64,000 nucleotides of DNA, taken from the NCBI RefSeq assembly GCF_015070875.1, contig NZ_JADDIV010000004.1:496001-560000 (forward strand). Reading direction: 5' to 3'. Numbering within the stretch: position 1 is the stretch's first letter; the number at the start of each line of letters is the position of its first letter. Shown here one piece after another: positions 33,847-42,815 of this stretch. Below the pieces are notes generated by a model. The model searched no databases, had not been told where the DNA came from, and was given only the letters and a program-made list of their open reading frames with translations. The DNA comes from Ramlibacter pallidus (GTDB lineage: Bacteria > Pseudomonadota > Gammaproteobacteria > Burkholderiales > Burkholderiaceae_C). The translations under genes and the position numbers were made by a program.

Positions 33847-34683
33847 ATGGTCATCGACCTCATCGACGGCACGTACGAGCTGTTCCGCCACTTCCACGGG
33901 CTGCGGCGCTTCACCAAGGGCGAAGACCGTCCGTACGGCGCCGTCGCCGGCGTGCTGAACGGCGTGCTGCAGATGGTGGAGGGCGGCGCCACCCACCTCG
34001 GCGTGGCGACCGACCACGTGATCGAGTCCTTCCGCAACGCTTTGTGGGCCGGCTACAAGACCGGCGCCGGCATCGAGCCCGCCTTGCGGGCGCAGTTCCA
34101 CCCGCTCGAGGAAGGCCTGGCGCTCATGGGCGTGGCCGTGTGGCCGATGACCGAGCTGGAGGCCGACGACGCGCTCGCCTCGGCGGCGCACCTGGCGGAC
34201 CGCGACGCGCGGGTCGAGAAGGTGCTGGTCTGGACGCCGGACAAGGACCTGGCGCAGTGCGTGCGCGGCGACCGCGTGCTGCAGGTGGACCGAAAAGGCA
34301 AGAAGATCCGCGCCGAGAGCGACATCCGCGCGAAGTTCGGCGTGGTGCCGGCACTGATCCCGGACTTCCTCGCGCTGGTCGGCGACGCGGCGGACGGTTA
34401 TCCGGGCATCGAAGGGATCGGGCGCGTCGGCGCGGCGCGGCTCCTGAACCAGCACGGGCCGATCGAGGCTTTTCCGCCCCAGGTGCTGGCCGGACGGCGC
34501 GAGGAGGCCCTGTTGTTCAAGACGCTGGCCACGCTGCGCACCGACGCCAGCCTGTTCCAGGACGTGGAGGAGCTGCGCTGGCGCGGGCCGAAGCGCGGCT
34601 TCCGGCCGTGGGCCGAGTCCATCGGCGCTCCCGGGCTGGCGGAACGCTGCCTGAAGGCGCAGTCGAAGCTGGAAGGCGCCTGA
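33847..34683 (+). CDS. 5'-3' exonuclease / flap-endonuclease-like protein
   Basis: A 278-residue protein homologous to the 5'-nuclease domain of DNA polymerase I: metal-binding acids in MVIDLIDGTYELFRH, TELEADDALASAA and VWTPDKDLAQCV, and the helix-3-turn-helix LVGDAADGYPGIEGIGRVGA that holds duplex DNA. No polymerase domain. Could process flaps, primers or repair intermediates, like the stand-alone ExoIX/Xni group. No clear ribosome site. Confidence 0.88.
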   Translation: MVIDLIDGTYELFRHFHGLRRFTKGEDRPYGAVAGVLNGVLQMVEGGATHLGVATDHVIESFRNALWAGYKTGAGIEPALRAQFHPLEEGLALMGVAVWPMTELEADDALASAAHLADRDARVEKVLVWTPDKDLAQCVRGDRVLQVDRKGKKIRAESDIRAKFGVVPALIPDFLALVGDAADGYPGIEGIGRVGAARLLNQHGPIEAFPPQVLAGRREEALLFKTLATLRTDASLFQDVEELRWRGPKRGFRPWAESIGAPGLAERCLKAQSKLEGA

Positions 34684-34696
34684 GGAAGAACCCGGC

Positions 34697-35257
34697 CTAG
34701 GGCTTGGCCGCGCCTTCGGGCAGCTTGCAGTTCTTCTGCAGGAAAAGGCCGACCAGGTGGTCGTTGCGGGCCTGGGCGTGGGCCAGCTGCTCCTGCACCT
34801 GGGCCACGCGCTGGTAGGACGCCGTCATCTTGGCCGTGCCGTCCTGCATCGCGGACATCTGCGACGACATGGCGGCTTGCGCGGCCATGCCGCTGATCAG
34901 GCTGCCGCCGGGGATCATGCCGAGCAGGCCGGATGCCATCGGCATGGCCATGCTGCCGGAGGCGCGCGACATCATCGCCTGCTGCGCCTGGTTGGCTTCC
35001 GCCTGGGCGACATCGGACGCGGCGCGGTGCCGGACCATCGCTTCCTCCAGGCTGCGCGACTCCGCATGGATCTGCTCGCAGGTGAGCGAGCCGTCGGTGA
35101 TCTTGCGCACGCCCGCGGGCGGCGCCATGGGTGCCATCGGCATGGCGGGCAGGGGCAGGTCCGCGTCGTCGGCCCCCATGGCGGGCATCACCTGCGCATG
35201 GGCGGGAACGAGGAGGGCGGCGGCAAGGAGCGCCCCGGCGGCAAAGCGGTACTTCAT
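34697..35257 (-). CDS. Exported Met/Ala-rich protein of unknown function
   Basis: A 186-residue protein with a signal peptide (LLAAALLVPAHAQ) and a low-complexity Met/Pro segment (residues about 22-50). The region TDGSLTCEQIHAESRSLEEA leads into a hydrophobic, Gly/Met-rich middle (GLLGMIPGGSLISGMAAQ) and a helical C-terminus (YQRVAQVQEQLAHAQARND). Two Cys could form a disulfide. No named family recognised. AGGAGCG site. Confidence 0.7.
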   Translation of the reverse strand: MKYRFAAGALLAAALLVPAHAQVMPAMGADDADLPLPAMPMAPMAPPAGVRKITDGSLTCEQIHAESRSLEEAMVRHRAASDVAQAEANQAQQAMMSRASGSMAMPMASGLLGMIPGGSLISGMAAQAAMSSQMSAMQDGTAKMTASYQRVAQVQEQLAHAQARNDHLVGLFLQKNCKLPEGAAKP

Positions 35258-35361
35258 GGCATCTCGCGGTGGGACGAAGCGGCCGAGTATCGGCCGGGGT
35301 GGGAAGGGGCCCAATGAACGATTTCACGGAAGCGCTCCGGCCGGCCGGGCGCCGGCGGGGA

Positions 35362-35397
35362 CGTGACTGCGGTCACAAATGCGGCCGCCGGCGCGTC
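35362..35397 (+). promoter_or_regulatory. CRP-like palindrome overlapping an ECF41-type promoter before the AhpD-like gene
   Basis: CGTGA-N6-TCACA (35362-35377) fits the CRP/FNR half-site pattern. In the same place GGTCACA-N16-CGTC (35371-35397) matches the published ECF41 promoter motif TGTCACA-N16-CGTC in all but the first base. The expected transcript would start near 35404 and leave a leader of about 48 bases. Confidence 0.5.
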
Positions 35398-35451
35398 TAA
35401 GGGGGACGGACGCGCGGTCCGGCGCCTTTTCCCGTTTCCAAAGGAGATCCC

Positions 35452-35910
35452 ATGAACCCCCGCATCGACTTCCATGCCGCCGCTCCCAAGGCCGCGCGTG
35501 CCCTTGGCCAGCTTTCCCACGCCGCCGGCAGTGCGCTGGACAAGCGCCTGAAGGAACTGGTGAACCTGCGCATCAGCCAGATCAACGGCTGCGCCTTCTG
35601 CATCGACATGCACTGGGCCGACCTGCTCCAGCAGGGCGTGGACGCGCGGCACGTGAACGCCGTGGCCGGCTGGCGCGAGGCGCACCGCTTCTTCGACGCC
35701 CGCGACCGCGCCGCGTTCGCCTGGGCCGAAGCCGTCAATGCCGTGCCGCATCGCACGCCCACGGACGCCGAGTTCGAGGCGGTGAAGCAGCACTTCAGCG
35801 AGGCGGAGATCGCCGACCTGAGCTTCAGCGTGGTCGCGATCCGCGGCTGGAACATGCTCAATGCGAGCTTCCACATGCCCGTGCCCGAGACACCCTACGT
35901 GGCAGGCTAG
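35452..35910 (+). CDS. AhpD-like carboxymuconolactone decarboxylase family protein
   Basis: A 152-residue helical protein with the peroxidase CxxC pair Cys47/Cys50 and His54 (NGCAFCIDMHWADL), followed by RFFDARDRAAFAWAEAVNAV. AhpD-like CMD proteins reduce peroxides or act as redox partners. This protein class is the classic target ('COE' gene) of ECF41 sigma factors, and an ECF41-like promoter lies upstream; the sigma gene itself is 3.9 kb further on. AAGGAGAT site. Convergent with the LysR gene, 4-base overlap. Confidence 0.92.
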   Translation: MNPRIDFHAAAPKAARALGQLSHAAGSALDKRLKELVNLRISQINGCAFCIDMHWADLLQQGVDARHVNAVAGWREAHRFFDARDRAAFAWAEAVNAVPHRTPTDAEFEAVKQHFSEAEIADLSFSVVAIRGWNMLNASFHMPVPETPYVAG

Positions 35911-36887
35911 CCCGGCGCGACGAGCTCCCGCGCCGCCGCCTTGACGCACTCCCGCAGCACGGCCAGCTGCGGCAGGGCCCGGGCGTGCCGGCGCGTGACG
36001 ATCGCGTAGGGCGGTGGCGAGATGCGCAGCGGCGACTCGACGACCGCGAGGCGCCGGCGCCAGGCGGGCCGCGCGAGCTCCGTGCGCGGCGCCACGGTGA
36101 GCAGCCCCGCGGACGCGGCGATGCCCATCATGTTCAGGATGCCGCGGCACTCCACTGCCGGCACCAGGGGCGGGCGCCCGAGGTCGAACACCGCGGTGTC
36201 GACGAGGGTGCGGATGTGCGAGCTGGCATGCGGCAGGACCCATGGTCCCGCGAGCACGGCATCGAGCGTCGCGCGCGGCCTGCCCTGCAGCGCATGGCCC
36301 TTGCCGGCCACGACGGACATCGGCTCCACGCCGAGGAAGTCCGCCTCCAGGTCCACCGCGCGGGCCAGCAGGGCACGGTCGGCGCTCCCGAGCAGGGCGT
36401 CGAGCCGCCCCGCGGCGAGTTCGTCGACCAGGGTGTCCAGCGTGCCCTCGCGCACGTCGACCACCGTGCCGGGCAGCTGTTCCCGCAGCGCCGCCAGCAG
36501 CTGCGGGAGCAGGGCGCTGATCAGGTAGGGCGAGGCGCCCAGCCGCAGCCGCCCGCCGCCGGACGCGGCGCGCACGGCGGCGTCGCGCGCCTGGCCCATC
36601 TCCTCGATCGCGACCCGGGCGCGCGCGACCACGCCGTGCGCCGCCGGCGTCAGGGTGGCGCCCGTGCGAGCGCGCTTGACCAGCCGCACGCCGAAGGCAT
36701 GTTCCAGGTCGTCGACCAGCACCACCGCCGCCGGCTGCGCGATGCCCAGTTCGACGGCCGCGCGGCGCAGCGACCCGAGCCGTTCAAGGGCGTCGAGCAG
36801 CTGCAGGTGGCGCAGCCGCAGGCGGCCGAACGCGGCCGGCAGGGATGGCGGCGTGCCGGGGGCGGACGCGGTTCGGGAGGCGGGCAA
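35907..36887 (-). CDS. LysR-family transcriptional regulator
   Basis: A 326-residue LysR regulator: HTH around 25-75 (LRHLQLLDALERLGSLRRAA, GIAQPAAVVLVDDLEHAFGV) and a periplasmic-binding-like effector domain. The TTG start has a good AGGAAAG 7 bases upstream. It is divergent from the lactonase/TctC/amidohydrolase operon with a perfect palindrome between them, so it most likely controls that operon and itself. Confidence 0.92.
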   Translation of the reverse strand: MPASRTASAPGTPPSLPAAFGRLRLRHLQLLDALERLGSLRRAAVELGIAQPAAVVLVDDLEHAFGVRLVKRARTGATLTPAAHGVVARARVAIEEMGQARDAAVRAASGGGRLRLGASPYLISALLPQLLAALREQLPGTVVDVREGTLDTLVDELAAGRLDALLGSADRALLARAVDLEADFLGVEPMSVVAGKGHALQGRPRATLDAVLAGPWVLPHASSHIRTLVDTAVFDLGRPPLVPAVECRGILNMMGIAASAGLLTVAPRTELARPAWRRRLAVVESPLRISPPPYAIVTRRHARALPQLAVLRECVKAAARELVAPG

Positions 36888-36902
36888 GCGGGCTTTCCTG
36901 GG

Positions 36903-36921
36903 TGAAACGGAATCCGTTTCA
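36903..36921. promoter_or_regulatory. Perfect 19-base palindrome between LysR and lactonase genes
   Basis: TGAAACGGA-A-TCCGTTTCA, two perfect 9-base arms around one base, 16 bases from the LysR start and 77 from the lactonase start. AT-rich for this genome. A strong candidate operator for the LysR protein or another dimeric regulator of the divergent unit. Confidence 0.6.
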
Positions 36922-36997
36922 GCTGCACCGGATTCTATGGCTACCCTGATCGCCCCCGGCCTCCTAGACTGGCCCGTCCGACCACAGGAACTGCCGC

Positions 36998-37804
36998 ATG
37001 AAGACTGCCCAGGCCAACGGAGCCCGGATCGCCTACCGCATCGATGGACCGGAGGGTGCGCCGGCCGTGATGCTGTCCAACAGCCTGATGTCCACCCACG
37101 CGATGTGGGACCCGCAGGTCGCCGCCCTGACGGAACGCTTCCGCGTGCTGCGCTACGACACGCGCGGCCACGGCCGGTCCGAGGTGACGCCGGGCCCGTA
37201 CACCATCGAACTGCTCGCGGACGACGCGGCCGCGCTGGTCGAGGCGACCGGCCTGGGCGCCGTGCATTTCGTCGGCCTGTCCATGGGCGGCATGATCGGC
37301 CAGCAGCTGGCGGTGCGGCATCCGCGCCGCGTGCTGTCCCTGTCCTTGTGCGACACGGCCAGCGAGATGCCGCCGCGGTCGATGTGGGAGGGGCGCTTCG
37401 AGACCGCCCGCAGGCAGGGCATCGCCGGGCTGGTGGACAGCACCATCCAGCGCTGGTTCGTGCCGTCCTTCATCGCGCGGGAGCCGGACGCGATCGCGTG
37501 GGTGCGCAGCATGATCCTGGAGACCACGCCCGAGGGCTACATCGCCTGCGCCAGCGCGGTGCGCGACATGTCGCAGACGCACATCCTGCGGCAGATCCGC
37601 GTGCCGACGCAGGTGATCGTGGGCCGCGACGACCCGGCCTGCACGCTGGCGGCCTCGCAGCTGCTGCACGCCGAGATCGCCGGATCCACGCTGCACGTCA
37701 TCGACGATGCGGCGCACCTGTCGAACATCGAGAAGCCGGAGCAGTTCACCCGGCTGCTGCTGGACTTCCTCACCGCGCAGGCCGCCGCCGCCCCGCCACG
37801 CTGA
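36998..37804 (+). CDS. 3-oxoadipate enol-lactonase-like alpha/beta hydrolase
   Basis: A 268-residue hydrolase close to PcaD in size and motifs: YDTRGHGRSEVTPGPYTIE, nucleophile Ser95 in GLSMGGMIG, VRDMSQTHILRQIRVPT and the His in DDAAHLSNIEKPEQF. It would open an enol-lactone. There are no other beta-ketoadipate genes next to it, so the true lactone may differ. First gene of a three-gene rightward operon with TctC and an amidohydrolase. Confidence 0.85.
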   Translation: MKTAQANGARIAYRIDGPEGAPAVMLSNSLMSTHAMWDPQVAALTERFRVLRYDTRGHGRSEVTPGPYTIELLADDAAALVEATGLGAVHFVGLSMGGMIGQQLAVRHPRRVLSLSLCDTASEMPPRSMWEGRFETARRQGIAGLVDSTIQRWFVPSFIAREPDAIAWVRSMILETTPEGYIACASAVRDMSQTHILRQIRVPTQVIVGRDDPACTLAASQLLHAEIAGSTLHVIDDAAHLSNIEKPEQFTRLLLDFLTAQAAAAPPR

Positions 37805-37850
37805 GCCTCCGGCCGGTCCGCACGCACGAAACACAAGCAAGGAGACAAAC

Positions 37851-38828
37851 ATGGAACGTCGAAGCTGGGTGCTGCGGGTGGCGGCGCTGGCGGCCTTTGC
37901 CGCACTTTCCGCCGGCCCCGCGGCCGCGCAGGCCTGGCCCACCAAGCCCGTGAAGCTGGTGGTGCCGCTCACGCCCGGCTCGGGTGCGGACATCGTCGCC
38001 CGCATCCTGGGGCGCAAGCTGCAGGACCTGTGGGGCCAGCCCGTGGTGGTGGACAACAAGCCGGGCGCGGGCGGCCAGATCGGCACCCGCGAGGTGGTGC
38101 GGGCAGACCCCGACGGCCACACGCTGCTGGTGCAGAGCGCCTCGCACGCGGCCAACGTCGCCATGTACAAGTCGCTGCCGTACGACCCGCTGAAGGACCT
38201 GGTGGACGTGGCGCTGCTCGCCAAGACGCCCTACGTCATGGTCGCGTCGGCGACCGGACCGTACAAGTCGGTCAAGGAGGTGGTGGAGCGCGCGAAGGTC
38301 CGCCAACCCGGCGTCTTCTTCGCCTCGGCCGGCGTCGGCACCTCGACCCACCTGACGGCGGAACTGTTCGCCGACAAGGCCGGCGTGCAGATGACGCACG
38401 TGCCCTTCAAGGGCTCGCCGGACGCGATCAACGACGTCGCCGGCGGCAACAGCGCGTTCTACATGGCGCCGCTGCCCACGGTGGCGGGCATGCTGAAGGA
38501 CGGGCGGCTGGTGCCGATCGGGGTCACCTCGGGCAAGCGCGTCGCCAGCCTGCCGCAGGTGCCGACGATCGCCGAGTCCGGGTATCCCGGCTTCGAGGCG
38601 GAACTCTGGGTCGGCCTCTGGGCACCGGCGGGCGTGCCGCCGGCCGTGCTGGAGAAGCTGGCCGCCGACGTGGCGAAGGCGCTGCAGTCGCCCGAGGTCG
38701 TCGAGCAGTTCGCCAAGGGCGGCAACGAGCCCGGCACGCTGGGCCCTGCCGCCTTCGCGAAGTTCGTGCGCAGCGAGGTGGAGACCAACCGCTCGCTGGT
38801 GCGCAAGGCCAACATCCCGGTGCAGTGA
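37851..38828 (+). CDS. TctC/Bug-family periplasmic carboxylate-binding protein
   Basis: A 325-residue binding protein with signal peptide (LAAFAALSAGPAAAQA) and Bug signatures WPTKPVKLVVPLTPGSGAD, VVVDNKPGAGGQIG, DPDGHTLLVQS and VPFKGSPDAINDVAGG. Probably captures an aromatic or dicarboxylic acid that the neighbouring lactonase and amidohydrolase degrade. No tctA/tctB near. AAGGAG site. Confidence 0.92.
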   Translation: MERRSWVLRVAALAAFAALSAGPAAAQAWPTKPVKLVVPLTPGSGADIVARILGRKLQDLWGQPVVVDNKPGAGGQIGTREVVRADPDGHTLLVQSASHAANVAMYKSLPYDPLKDLVDVALLAKTPYVMVASATGPYKSVKEVVERAKVRQPGVFFASAGVGTSTHLTAELFADKAGVQMTHVPFKGSPDAINDVAGGNSAFYMAPLPTVAGMLKDGRLVPIGVTSGKRVASLPQVPTIAESGYPGFEAELWVGLWAPAGVPPAVLEKLAADVAKALQSPEVVEQFAKGGNEPGTLGPAAFAKFVRSEVETNRSLVRKANIPVQ

Positions 38829-39721
38829 GCCGCCACGACGCGCTGGCGCCGCCCTGCGCACCGCCCGACTTCGCCGTGCGCCCGCCGCGCCTGTCCCTGC
38901 CGCCGCTCTCCTGCGACTGCCATGCGCACGTGATCGGGCCCGCGCGGCAGTACCCCTTCATTCCCGAGCGGGTCTACACGCCGCCCGACTGCCTGCCCGA
39001 CGACTACGAGCGCATGCGCGCGGTGCTGGGACTGCAGCGGGCCGTGCTGGTCCAGCCCAGCGTCTACGGCAGCGACAACCGGCTGCTGCTCGATGCGCTG
39101 GCGCAGGATCCGGTCCACATGCGCGGGGTCGCCGTGTTGCCGGCCGACGTGGCCGATGGAGACCTGGAGCGCCTGCACGCCGCCGGCGTGCGCGGCCTGC
39201 GCGTGAACCTGGTCGACCGGCACGATGCCGGCGGTCCCTTGCCGATGGACCGGCTGGCGCGGCTCGCCCGCCGCATCTCGCCCCTGGGCTGGCACCTCGA
39301 ACTGCTGGTCCACGCCGACCAGCATGCCGGCGAACTGCCGCGGCTGGCGGACCTCGGCGTGCCCGTGGTGCTGGGCCACTTCGGCTACCTGGCGATCGGC
39401 GCCGGGCCGGAGCATGCCGGTTTCCAGGCCTTGCTGCGCCTGCTGGCGGGGGGCAGCGTGTGGGTCAAGCTGACCGGCCCCTACCGGCTCACCCGCCAGC
39501 CCCTGCCGTACCCCGACTGCGATGCCCTGGCGCAGGCCCTGCGCGAGACCGCGCCGCAGCGCCTGCTGTGGGGCTCGGACTGGCCGCACGTGATGCTGAA
39601 GGGGCGCATGCCCAACGACGCCGACCTGGTCGACCTGCTGGAGCGCTGGCTGCCCGGCGCGGACCTGCGGGAGCAGGTGCTGGTGCGCAACCCGCAGGCG
39701 CTCTACGGCTTCGGCGACTGA
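38825..39721 (+). CDS. Amidohydrolase related to 2-pyrone-4,6-dicarboxylate hydrolase
   Basis: A 298-residue TIM-barrel hydrolase: CDCHAHVIGPARQYPF, RAVLVQPSVYGSDN, VVLGHFGYLA and LLWGSDWPHVML carry the metal-binding His and Asp residues. This layout recalls LigI, which opens the PDC lactone in the protocatechuate 4,5-cleavage pathway. LigA/LigB homologues lie 10 kb away. GTG start overlaps the TctC stop (GTGA). Confidence 0.85.
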   Translation: MSRHDALAPPCAPPDFAVRPPRLSLPPLSCDCHAHVIGPARQYPFIPERVYTPPDCLPDDYERMRAVLGLQRAVLVQPSVYGSDNRLLLDALAQDPVHMRGVAVLPADVADGDLERLHAAGVRGLRVNLVDRHDAGGPLPMDRLARLARRISPLGWHLELLVHADQHAGELPRLADLGVPVVLGHFGYLAIGAGPEHAGFQALLRLLAGGSVWVKLTGPYRLTRQPLPYPDCDALAQALRETAPQRLLWGSDWPHVMLKGRMPNDADLVDLLERWLPGADLREQVLVRNPQALYGFGD

Positions 39722-39742
39722 GGCGGATGGGTCCGCCGGCCC

Positions 39743-39769
39743 TGTCACGGAACGGAGGGCACGTCCGTC
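39743..39769 (+). promoter_or_regulatory. ECF41-type promoter before the sigma factor gene
   Basis: TGTCACG-N16-CGTC matches the known ECF41 consensus TGTCACA-N16-CGTC except for the last -35 base, with exact spacing. It is 19 bases upstream of the sigma gene start, as expected for an autoregulated ECF41 factor. Confidence 0.65.
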
Positions 39770-39770
39770 T

Positions 39771-39787
39771 GGGAGTCATAGACTCCC
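39771..39787 (+). promoter_or_regulatory. Perfect palindrome touching the sigma factor start codon
   Basis: GGGAGTC-ATA-GACTCCC, two perfect 7-base arms, one base before the ATG. The predicted transcription start falls inside it, so it may be an operator rather than an RNA hairpin. No ribosome site is present. Confidence 0.5.
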
Positions 39788-39788
39788 G

Positions 39789-40679
39789 ATGCGCCGCATG
39801 ACTTCGTCCACCGCTCCCACACCTTCCGCCACCTTCCAGGCCCTGCGCCCACGCCTGTTCGGCATCGCCTACCGCATGCTCGGGGTGCGCGCGGATGCCG
39901 AGGACGTGCTGCAGGACGCCTGGCTGCGCTGGCGCGACGCCGACCATGGCGCCTTGCAGTCGGCGGAGGCCTGGCTGGTCACGGTGGTCACGCGCCTGGC
40001 CATCGACCGCCTGCGCGCGCTGCGCGCCGAACGCGAGGCCTACGTCGGCAACTGGCTGCCCGAGCCGCTGGTCGAAGCGGACGAACGCACGCCCGAGTCG
40101 CTGGCCGAGCTCGCCAGCGACGTCTCGGTGGCCTTCCTGCACGTGCTGGAGCGGCTGGCGCCCGAGGAGCGCGCCGCCTTCCTGCTGCGGCAGGTGTTCG
40201 ACTACGACTACGACGAGATCGCCGGCATGCTGGGCAAGCGCGGGACAGCCGTGCGGCAGATGGTGCACCGGGCGGCCGAGCGCGTGCGGCAGGAGCGGCC
40301 GCGGTTCGAGGTGCCGCCCGAGATCCATCGCGACCTGCTGCAGAAGTTCATGCTGGCGGCCCGGAGCGGCGAGCGGGCCGCGATCCGGGCGCTGCTGGCC
40401 GACGACGTGCTCACCATCGGCGATGGCGGAGGCAAGGTGCCTTCGGTGGCCGGCGGACTGCGCGGCGGCGAGCGCGTCACCAACCTGTACTGGGCGCACG
40501 CGCTGCGGCTGGGCTCCCGGCTGCAGTACCGGATCGCGACCATCAACGGCGAGCCCGGGCTGCTGCGCTTCATCGACGGCCGGCTGGAGTCGGCCAATGC
40601 GGTCGTCACCGATGGCTCCCGCATCGTGGCGATCTACGCGGTGCGCAACCCGGACAAGCTGGAGAACGTGCGGGCCTGA
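39789..40679 (+). CDS. ECF41-family RNA polymerase sigma factor (SigJ-like)
   Basis: A 296-residue sigma factor with sigma-2 (FGIAYRMLGVRADAEDVLQD) and sigma-4 (LAPEERAAFLLRQVFDYDYD, TAVRQMVHRAAERVRQ) domains plus a C-terminal SnoaL-like domain that replaces an anti-sigma factor. The ECF41 hallmarks are all present: WLPEPL (89-94) in the linker, DGGGK (212-216) and NPDKL (287-291) near the C-terminus. The usual partner gene is not adjacent; an AhpD-like gene 3.9 kb upstream has a matching promoter. An ATG 9 bases downstream is an alternative start. Confidence 0.93.
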   Translation: MRRMTSSTAPTPSATFQALRPRLFGIAYRMLGVRADAEDVLQDAWLRWRDADHGALQSAEAWLVTVVTRLAIDRLRALRAEREAYVGNWLPEPLVEADERTPESLAELASDVSVAFLHVLERLAPEERAAFLLRQVFDYDYDEIAGMLGKRGTAVRQMVHRAAERVRQERPRFEVPPEIHRDLLQKFMLAARSGERAAIRALLADDVLTIGDGGGKVPSVAGGLRGGERVTNLYWAHALRLGSRLQYRIATINGEPGLLRFIDGRLESANAVVTDGSRIVAIYAVRNPDKLENVRA

Positions 40680-40748
40680 TCCCGTCGCGACGGCGACAGC
40701 CGCGCGGCGCGAAGGAATTCACGCCCGCGGGCTCCGCGTGCGGCGGCA

Positions 40749-40764
40749 CGTGACTGGAGTCACT
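40749..40764 (+). promoter_or_regulatory. CRP-like palindrome before the patatin gene
   Basis: CGTGA-N6-TCACT, with inner palindrome GTGAC-TGGA-GTCAC. It is almost the same as the site at 35362 (GTGAC-TGCG-GTCAC). Likely bound by a CRP/FNR-type protein and placed to control the patatin gene. Confidence 0.45.
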
Positions 40765-40802
40765 CCGGCGCGGCATGGCCGCAGGGAATACTCCCGGGCT
40801 TG

Positions 40803-40831
40803 GCGGCGATCTGCGGATCGCCGCAGTTTTT
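40803..40831 (+). terminator. Intrinsic terminator in the leader of the patatin gene
   Basis: GCGGCGATC-TGCG-GATCGCCGC, perfect 9-base arms, then AG and TTTTT. It is 124 bases after the sigma gene stop and only 35 bases before the patatin ATG. It could simply end sigma-gene transcripts, but no room is left for a promoter after it, so it may be an attenuator for patatin expression. Confidence 0.65.
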
Positions 40832-40865
40832 CCCCCTGATCCCCGCAGTCCCACGAGAGGAATCC

Positions 40866-42815
40866 ATGCACGTCGCCACCGGCGCACCGCTGCTCCATGC
40901 CCACCGGGAAATGCTGATGGACGGCCTGAAAAGGGTCTTCGGCGATTTCGACGACACGATGCTCGAGCGGGTGCTGCCCATGCTGGAATGGGTCCAGATC
41001 GGCGGCGGCGAGGCCCTGCTGGAACAGGGCAGCCAGGACGAGAGCCTGTACTTCGTGATCAGCGGCCGGCTGCGCGCGGTGGCCACGGCCGCCGATGGCA
41101 CCCGGACGGTGCTCGGCGAGGTGGCGCGCGGCGAAACCGTGGGCGAGATGGCGTTCTTCACCCGCGAGCCGCGCACGGCCACCGTCGTCGCCGTGCGTGA
41201 AAGCGTGCTGGTGCGGTTCTCGCGGGACGCGTTCCGCGAGGTGCTGCTGGCGTATCCGCTGGTGTCGCTGAACATGTCGCGGCTGGTGATCGAGCGCCTG
41301 AAGCGGGCTTCGGTCGGCACGGCCGTCGCGCGGCCGGTGGCCATCGGCATTGCCGCGATCTCCGCCGACGCGCATGCGCTGGGCGTGGCGTCCATGCTGC
41401 AGGAGGTGCTCGCCCCGGCGGGCCGCTGCGTGGTGATCGATTCGGCCTGGATCGACCAGCGCCTGGGCGCCGGCTCGGCCTGCGTGCCCACCACCGACGC
41501 CGCGGCCTCGCGCCGCATCGCCCACCTGCTGGAACAGGTGGAGTCCGAGCACGAGTTCGTGCTTTTCGTGGCCGACGCGGCGGCGACGGGCTGGACGCGC
41601 CGCTGCCTGCGCCATTGCGACGAGGTCATCCTGGTGGCGGACGCCGACGCGCCGGTGGAACGGCACCCGATCGAGCGGGAGTGCCTGCCGCAGGGCGACA
41701 GCGGGCGCGGCGAGATCCAGCAGACGCTGCTGCTGCTGCACGACGATGCGAAGCTGTCGCCGTGCGGCACCGGACGCTGGCTGGCCGGCCGCACGATCGC
41801 GCGCCATCTCCACGTCCGCCGCGGGCGCCTCAAGGACTGGCAGCGCGTGGGGCGCATCCTCAGCGGCACGGCGGTCGGGCTGGTGCTCTCCGGCGGCGGC
41901 GCGCGCGGCTTCGCGCACCTGGGCGTGCTGTGCGCGCTGGAGGAGCAGGGCATCGAGGTCGACATGGTCGGCGGGACCAGCATCGGCGCCGTGATGGGCG
42001 CCTTCGCGGCGATGGACCTGCCCTCGGCGGACGTGGTGCAGCGCGCCCGCTCGGCCTTCCGCTCCAATCCCACGCGCGACTTCAATCCGGTGCCGCTGCT
42101 GTCGCTGATCGGCGGGGCCCGGCTGAAGCACGTCATCGACCAGGCGGTCGCCGAGTCCTGCGGCCGCGACGCCGGCATCGAGGATCTCTGGAAGCCGTTC
42201 TTCTGCGTCAGCAGCAACTATTCCGCCGCGCGGGAAGCCGTGCACGTGCGGGGCCCGCTGGCGCGCTCCATCCGCGCCAGCGTCTCCATCCCGGGCGCGC
42301 TGCCACCCGTGATCCTGGGCGGCGAGCTGCACATCGACGGCGGCACCTTCAACAACTTCCCCGCGGACGTGATGCGCCGCATGGGTGCGGCGCGCATCGT
42401 CGGCGTGAACCTGCTGCGCGACCGCAACGTGCGCTACGAGCTCGAGGAGATCCCCGGGCCGTTCTCGCTGCTGCGCGACAAGCTGCTCGGGCGCCGGCAC
42501 CGGCTGCCCTCCATCACCTCGCTGCTGCTCAACGCCAGCATGATGAACAGCTACGCGCGCCAGAAGGAAGTGCAGGCGCTGGTGGACCTGTACTTCGCGC
42601 CCGACGTGCACCGCTATGGCATGCTGGAGTGGGGCGCCTTCGACAAGGTGGTGCAGGCCGGCTATGCGCACGCGCAGCAGGTGCTCGCCGAGGCGCCGCC
42701 CGCGCAGCTGGCGTCGTTCCCCTCCGGACGCCGTCCCGCGGAAGCCCGGCCCCTGCCGCGCGCGCAGGTGTCGCCCCCGGCCAACGATGCCGGTCCGCTG
42801 GCGCATGCCGCATGA
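40866..42815 (+). CDS. NTE-like patatin phospholipase with cyclic-nucleotide-binding domain
   Basis: A 649-residue protein. Residues about 20-135 form a CAP_ED/cNMP-binding domain (EALLEQGSQDESLYFVISGR, GEVARGETVGEMAFFTREPR). A middle region (about 160-330) follows, then the patatin domain: oxyanion GGGARG (about 342), nucleophile Ser in GTSIG (about 370) and catalytic Asp in DGG (about 491). This order is that of eukaryotic neuropathy target esterase and bacterial relatives that hydrolyse lysophospholipids. No membrane helix is obvious. GAGAGGAA site. The response regulator gene starts 20 bases after it. Confidence 0.92.
   Translation: MHVATGAPLLHAHREMLMDGLKRVFGDFDDTMLERVLPMLEWVQIGGGEALLEQGSQDESLYFVISGRLRAVATAADGTRTVLGEVARGETVGEMAFFTREPRTATVVAVRESVLVRFSRDAFREVLLAYPLVSLNMSRLVIERLKRASVGTAVARPVAIGIAAISADAHALGVASMLQEVLAPAGRCVVIDSAWIDQRLGAGSACVPTTDAAASRRIAHLLEQVESEHEFVLFVADAAATGWTRRCLRHCDEVILVADADAPVERHPIERECLPQGDSGRGEIQQTLLLLHDDAKLSPCGTGRWLAGRTIARHLHVRRGRLKDWQRVGRILSGTAVGLVLSGGGARGFAHLGVLCALEEQGIEVDMVGGTSIGAVMGAFAAMDLPSADVVQRARSAFRSNPTRDFNPVPLLSLIGGARLKHVIDQAVAESCGRDAGIEDLWKPFFCVSSNYSAAREAVHVRGPLARSIRASVSIPGALPPVILGGELHIDGGTFNNFPADVMRRMGAARIVGVNLLRDRNVRYELEEIPGPFSLLRDKLLGRRHRLPSITSLLLNASMMNSYARQKEVQALVDLYFAPDVHRYGMLEWGAFDKVVQAGYAHAQQVLAEAPPAQLASFPSGRRPAEARPLPRAQVSPPANDAGPLAHAA

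Follow-up and report, generated by a model that had tools for sequence, protein, structure and literature searches.

ECF41 sigma factors generally control a single target gene or operon, according to the sections of Wecke et al. (2012, PMC3426412) considered here, and are themselves controlled by a fused C-terminal domain, starting transcription at promoters of the form TGTCACA-N16-CGTC (PMC3426412; PMC8999054, both considered in part). In the former survey 34% of 373 ECF41 genes stood alone, and the same sections name no targets for them. Which gene a sigma factor of this group serves when no partner adjoins it is the question raised by a locus of Ramlibacter pallidus. The window, meaning the whole stretch of DNA analyzed, comprises 64,000 nucleotides (C4:496001-560000) of a 4.31-Mb genome that is 99.99% complete; it carries an ECF41 sigma gene and an AhpD-like gene of the carboxymuconolactone decarboxylase (CMD) family, and the features of the locus are summarized in Table 1.

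Table 1. Features of the ECF41 locus, with positions counted from the first letter of the window.
Feature	Position	Strand	Basis or remark
Inverted repeat GTGACTGCGGTCAC, overlapping the -35 of the CMD promoter	35363..35376	.	possible operator of another regulator
ECF41-type promoter of the CMD gene, GGTCACA-N16-CGTC	35371..35397	+	sequence; relatives' promoters exact TGTCACA-N16-CGTC
Ribosome-binding site AAGGAG of the CMD gene	35441..35446	+	sequence
AhpD-like carboxymuconolactone decarboxylase family gene (CMD), 152 aa	35452..35910	+	PF02627, TIGR00778 over cut-off
LysR-type regulator, divergent to the pcaD cluster	35907..36887	-	PF00126, PF03466
3-oxoadipate enol-lactonase (pcaD-like)	36998..37804	+	TIGR02427 275 bits, cut-off 256
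TctC-type solute-binding protein (start chosen by eye)	37851..38828	+	PF03401
Amidohydrolase, 4-sulfomuconolactone hydrolase-like (start uncertain)	38848..39721	+	PF04909; NF042924 below cut-off
ECF41-type promoter of the sigma gene, TGTCACG-N16-CGTC	39743..39769	+	1 mismatch off consensus
ECF41 (SigJ-like) sigma factor gene, 296 aa	39789..40679	+	TIGR02957 333.6 bits; SigJ 5xe7 E 2.5e-48
Second inverted repeat GTGACTGGAGTCAC, between the sigma gene and the patatin-like gene	40750..40763	.	sequence
Terminator-like hairpin and T-run after the sigma gene	40803..40824	+	4 such sites in the stretch vs 1.4 expected

The assignment of the sigma factor to the ECF41 group, made in a preliminary description of the locus, holds: the protein has the sigma2 and sigma4 domains (PF04542, PF08281), its residues 15-294 match TIGR02957 (SigJ/SigX4, a model that includes the C-terminal extension) above the cut-off of 323.25 bits, and both the WLPEP linker motif (as WLPEPL) and the C-terminal extension are present. 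DGGGK and NPDKL, which we take to be hallmarks of ECF41, are common to the protein and its relatives. Its best solved relative is SigJ of M. tuberculosis, aligned over residues 13-291, and it is the only ECF41 factor of its genome, the next TIGR02957 match scoring 64.5 bits vs 333.4. The preliminary description was also right that the sigma gene lacks its usual neighbor, a CMD/oxidoreductase/epimerase (COE) gene: its direct neighbors, named by domain, are the amidohydrolase and the patatin-like gene, neither of the COE kind, and the CMD gene ends 3.9 kb upstream. No anti-sigma gene was found among the flanking genes named by domain match. The patatin-like gene (window 40866-42815) joins cyclic-nucleotide-binding, P-loop-like and patatin domains in one gene.

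The CMD protein scores 75 bits with PF02627 (cut-off 23) and 60 bits with TIGR00778 ahpD_dom (cut-off 27.8), and its translation contains the AhpD-type site E-x11-CxxC-x3-H (ELVNLRISQINGCAFCIDMH). Its solved relatives are AhpD-like PA0269 (2o4d, E 1.8e-23) and Atu0492 (2gmy, E 4.1e-25). An identity as gamma-carboxymuconolactone decarboxylase proper (PcaC) was rejected, as no PcaC model is found among the six NCBIfam matches of the protein at E<=0.001. The protein is probably a CxxC redox enzyme.

Exactly where the preliminary description had placed it, and at the distance of about 4.3 kb it had given from the promoter of the sigma gene, lies the sequence GGTCACA-AATGCGGCCGCCGGCG-CGTC on the + strand, with a spacer of 16, one mismatch from the published consensus TGTCACA-N16-CGTC and with the ATG of the CMD gene 54 nt downstream. 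The number of such sites was dropped as evidence: at up to one mismatch the window holds two, the CMD and sigma promoters, vs 1.01 expected, and 24 of 100 shuffles of the window reach two matches at one mismatch, so that the count is not beyond chance. Position decides instead, because both sites are directly upstream of the two expected genes and on the right strand. Relaxed to KGTCAC-N17-CGTC, the pattern has 36 matches across the 4.31-Mb genome vs 17 for the reversed control, GGTCACA-N16-CGTC being found once among the 36, and a whole-genome search returned no exact TGTCACA-N16-CGTC. A GC3 test that took in 30 of these 36 matches placed 25 inside coding ORFs and left five outside, including both window promoters; two matches first taken as intergenic, L004 and L005, are probably coding too, each falling within a long open frame. 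A third intergenic-looking site in this genome, TGTCACG-N16-CGTC (L027, G000:C4:314972-314998), begins about 75-80 nt ahead of a solute-binding-protein-like gene and lies 50 nt from the first possible start of that gene. A search of positions 34500-41000 found no sigma-70-like promoter, which is uninformative since 0.1 was expected.

Both window promoters are one mismatch off, whereas the CMD promoters of relatives are mostly exact. Changes of this kind are not unheard of, since the sigma promoters of relatives are more variable: 19 of 23 relatives' sigma genes have the motif upstream at zero or one mismatch with a spacer of 15-16, the first base being changed in G025 (GGTCACA), G029 and G033 and the last in G350 (TGTCACG, as in the window) and G272. 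In the sigma promoters of L102, L103, L105 and L111 the first ATG follows 7-8 nt past CGTC, so these mRNAs may be leaderless. The sigma protein deviates as well, in region 4: residue 152 (40242-40244), which by alignment with E. coli sigma-E we take to be the start of the -35-reading helix, is G here and E in 39 of the 40 other ECF41 sigmas compared.

The co-occurrence of promoter, CMD gene and sigma factor was analyzed in 80 genomes (the own genome, 47 congeners and 32 others of the order), accepting CMD matches at E<=1e-30 and scoring a genome as ECF41-positive on a TIGR02957 match at E<=1e-60. Among 28 CMD matches in 79 genomes, counts uncorrected for kinship in relatives that are not independent samples and in many cases drafts, exact TGTCACA-N16-CGTC stands within 250 nt upstream of 19 of the 21 in ECF41-positive genomes, the remaining two being second copies (G009, G046), and of none of the seven in ECF41-negative genomes, even at one mismatch. 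That relatives might lack the motif before their CMD genes, the prospect which the preliminary description held against its own proposal, is thus not what these genomes present. The regions fetched for the sigma or the CMD agree, with the exact promoter before 40 of 41 relatives' CMD genes, and CMD genes at E<=1e-44 (at least 53% identical) occur in 16 of the 80 genomes, including the own, all 16 belonging to the 22 that bear the sigma. Among the 47 congeners, exact sites number 46 in the 19 ECF41-positive genomes (reversed control 5) and 12 in the 28 ECF41-negative ones (reversed control 15). Most of the 46 are accounted for by the module itself, 33 lying no more than 250 nt ahead of one of the listed CMD or sigma genes and four more directly behind a sigma gene, ahead of CMD homologues of weaker similarity (G025, G029, G047, G009; at G009 site 308688 the CMD is just a 38-residue match); the leftover nine compare with about eight expected from the rate in ECF41-negative genomes (12/28 per genome). 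One of the 12 sites in genomes scored as negative, in G042 (L216, C78:113431-113457), precedes a 48-residue remnant of a sigma N-terminus (E 1.4e-7), a decayed ECF41 module.

We therefore consider the CMD gene to be the target of the sigma factor, the two forming an ECF41 module whose parts have come apart, with a probability of about 0.83. In such a module an ECF41 promoter would drive expression of the sigma factor itself, which would be kept inactive by the C-terminal domain fused to it, in line with reports on the group, until a signal frees it; RNA polymerase carrying it would then start at GGTCACA-N16-CGTC and give rise to the AhpD-like protein, a putative CxxC redox enzyme whose substrates are probably peroxides or small reactive molecules of other kinds. 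Regulation would act in trans over 4 kb, for which adjacency is not needed, and the separation may have arisen by rearrangement or by loss of an adjacent CMD copy whose role a detached one took over. Counted against this reading are the two off-consensus promoters, G152, the inverted repeat on the -35, the chance-level motif count, the motif-less second CMD copies of G009 and G046, and the place of the CMD gene in the DNA tree (see below). The promoters, G152 and the repeat could reflect changed specificity, added control or slow decay.

How the two genes came to be apart can be approached through gene order. The 42 fetched ECF41 sigma loci, to which these counts apply (and which do not extend to some further sigmas, among them the 66% identical ones of G453 and G396), comprise 35 with the order >ECF>>CMD>, two divergent pairs, one >CMD>>ECF> and four without a CMD within 3 kb, the CMD of L093 being counted on a 38-residue match. 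Every one of the 22 fetched sigmas at least 65% identical to that of the window, scored on up to five candidates per genome so that paralogues may be missed, has a CMD within 3 kb; the sigma of L212 (64-65% identical) has none, but its contig ends 1.1 kb away. In the tree the window sigma groups with those of G017, G035 and G039 (96/91), all of which have the order >ECF>>CMD> and CMDs 73-77% identical to that of the window. The proposed tie between the AhpD-like gene and the sigma factor is supported by these homologues, which adjoin ECF41 sigmas behind an exact ECF41 promoter.

The window itself has the order >CMD>...>ECF>, with the CMD upstream of the sigma gene instead of downstream as in the nearest relatives, and in G017 the sigma, the CMD and two other genes are followed by matches to the window at 45.4, 48.5 and 55.5 kb, with order and orientation preserved. 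A simple insertion would not produce this arrangement, in which the sigma gene keeps one flank yet the CMD sits on the opposite side. The split ECF41 module of the preliminary description is thus upheld insofar as the parts are separated and the CMD is of the kind that adjoins the sigma in relatives, and is not supported as regards its cause, an insertion between neighbors, which is at odds with the reversed order and with a right flank in G017 that partly matches that of the window. The genes in between, described there as three unrelated operons, are actually one LysR gene and one pcaD-tctC-amidohydrolase cluster, together resembling a single catabolic cluster and its regulator. No match to the amidohydrolase at E<=1e-70 exists in the 79 other genomes, so that the cluster may have been acquired late. 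An empty-site search through the amidohydrolase, the left-hand exonuclease and the patatin gene did not lead to the rearrangement: the exonuclease is matched in 20 further genomes, where its 1.5-kb flanks showed no copy of the CMD gene or of the 205-aa gene adjoining it in the window, and the patatin gene has relatives at E<=1e-100 in seven of 80 genomes including its own, none of the six others being ECF41-positive.

It is possible, at odds clearly below even, that the CMD gene was never the neighbor of the sigma gene, the adjacent partner having been lost and the present gene being a detached second target, a reading that overlaps with the one preferred here. The window CMD belongs to a 100/100 clade of 18 CMDs, of which 12 are sigma-adjacent and six, itself included, are detached, a term that covers genes on another contig or beyond the fetched stretch, many of the genomes being drafts. 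Such an origin is favored by same-clade detached CMDs that have an exact ECF41 promoter, which in G017 (C52) and G047 (C38) have no sigma nearby, in Variovorax sp. DXTD-1 (G363, L120/L200) coexist with a sigma on another contig that has its own 42% CMD, and in a Hydrogenophaga MAG (L121) lie on an 85-kb contig, the sigma, accompanied by a 39% CMD of its own, being on another of 32.8 kb; the fifth detached copy, in G009 at 4076723, is without the motif. It is also favored by the places of the window in the CMD and sigma trees, which do not match: the window CMD stands outside the clade of adjacent copies of G017, G035 and G039 in the DNA tree (95/95). Forcing it to join these copies nevertheless costs 0.19 log units and is not rejected (p 0.49; p 0.28 with the adjacent copy of G017 alone), whereas tying it solely to the detached copies of G017 (C52) and Variovorax is rejected (p 0.003). 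That rejection, and the tenable grouping with the adjacent copies of the nearest sigmas, speak against a detached origin; a grouping with a larger five-row set including the copies of G009 is not rejected (p 0.137). The gene trees do not decide whether the CMD is the original partner.

Four other genomes have detached CMDs behind exact promoters, so that targets need not be neighbors. Exact ECF41 sites are also located directly before NAD(P)-binding NmrA/epimerase-type genes, a class like that of other COE genes, on contigs other than that of the sigma (L217, G015:C3:69504-69530; L218, G020:C106:40433-40459); they are leads only, because they were picked after the fact from the nine leftover sites. 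In L092, a gene with an isochorismatase domain, preceded by an exact ECF41 promoter of its own (G009:C1:4084219-4084245), lies between a divergent CMD and sigma, and a further exact site (G009:C1:4088373-4088399) stands about 2.5 kb past the sigma gene, before an open frame. The literature searched, which largely lacked subscription papers, yielded no non-adjacent ECF41 targets. An ECF41 sigma of Azospirillum reportedly controls lateral flagella, to go by a title, and the regulon may be wider. A bolder proposal, which we regard as unlikely, is that ECF41 in Comamonadaceae is not a strictly local one-target switch and reaches scattered CMD and NmrA/epimerase targets in trans, E152G and the two off-consensus promoters having here drifted together towards a changed specificity. 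It has to contend with the same two -35 deviations before the sigma genes of G025 and G350, the sigma of G025 keeping E152.

We hold it very unlikely that the module is a decaying relic whose sigma and promoter ceased to cooperate once the parts had separated. The off-consensus promoters, E152G and the lost adjacency would fit such a course, and the sigma remnant near an intact promoter in G042 indicates that the module can decay. Both genes are intact, however, and their pairwise dN/dS against relatives (0.20-0.34 for the CMD, 0.24-0.40 for the sigma, hence 0.20-0.40 overall) speaks for two working genes; moreover, the end branch of the sigma (0.11) is shorter than that of G017 (0.15), and the -35 deviations recur before sigma genes elsewhere (GGTCACA in G025, TGTCACG in G350).

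The inverted repeats suggest a further reading, in which the GTCAC of the CMD promoter is the right half of GTGACTGCGGTCAC, bound by another regulator, and the ECF41 match a by-product; we judge it very improbable. GTGACTGCGGTCAC, which overlaps the -35, resembles what we take to be a CRP-type GTGA-N6-TCAC site, and the 4.3-Mb genome has the pattern GTGACTNNNGTCAC just twice, each time in the window (reversed control 0). The two copies are intergenic and 5.4 kb apart, bracketing the stretch from the CMD promoter to the sigma gene, and suggest either a shared operator or a trace of rearrangement. As a conserved operator the repeat was rejected: none of the 41 fetched relative regions contains GTGACTNNAGTCAC at up to one mismatch, TGTCACA-N16-CGTC being kept before the CMD, and none of the six relatives of the patatin gene has the repeat upstream (in two of the six the match starts within the gene). 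The same findings argue against another regulator, as do the -10 CGTC and following TAAG of the CMD promoter, which agree with several relatives' promoters, and the fact that the repeat pair was noticed after the fact. The idea that the motif arose purely by chance ahead of an unrelated CMD gene, for which the two matches vs 1.0 expected in 64 kb at the same stringency might be cited, deserves next to no credence in view of position, strand and the promoters of relatives (19/21 vs 0/7).

Compared with the ECF41-COE modules in the sections of Wecke et al. considered (PMC3426412), the locus has in common the WLPEP linker, the long C-terminal extension and a putative CMD/AhpD-like target. The promoter TGTCACA-N16-CGTC, which stands there before the target and often before the sigma gene, is approached by the window copies to one mismatch each. 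The locus differs in that no target was detected there other than the COE gene adjoining the sigma, whereas the CMD of the window is 4 kb off with genes between, in an order reversed to that of its nearest relatives and with both promoters one base off. RpoE9 and SMb20029 of Sinorhizobium meliloti, as described in the parts of PMC6180224 considered, are likewise an ECF41 sigma with a single CxxC CMD target; they differ from the window in being adjacent, the CMD upstream of the sigma gene and likely cotranscribed with it. The locus hints at a variant of the known ECF41 module and at ECF41 targets that can be unlinked. Together with its relatives it suggests a way of searching for targets, by scanning the rest of the genome for CMD or NmrA/epimerase-like genes preceded by an ECF41 promoter, which would serve the ECF41 genes without a linked COE (34% of 373 in the part of PMC3426412 cited above). 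If confirmed, it would qualify the published view of the ECF41 sigma factor as controlling one adjoining gene or operon.
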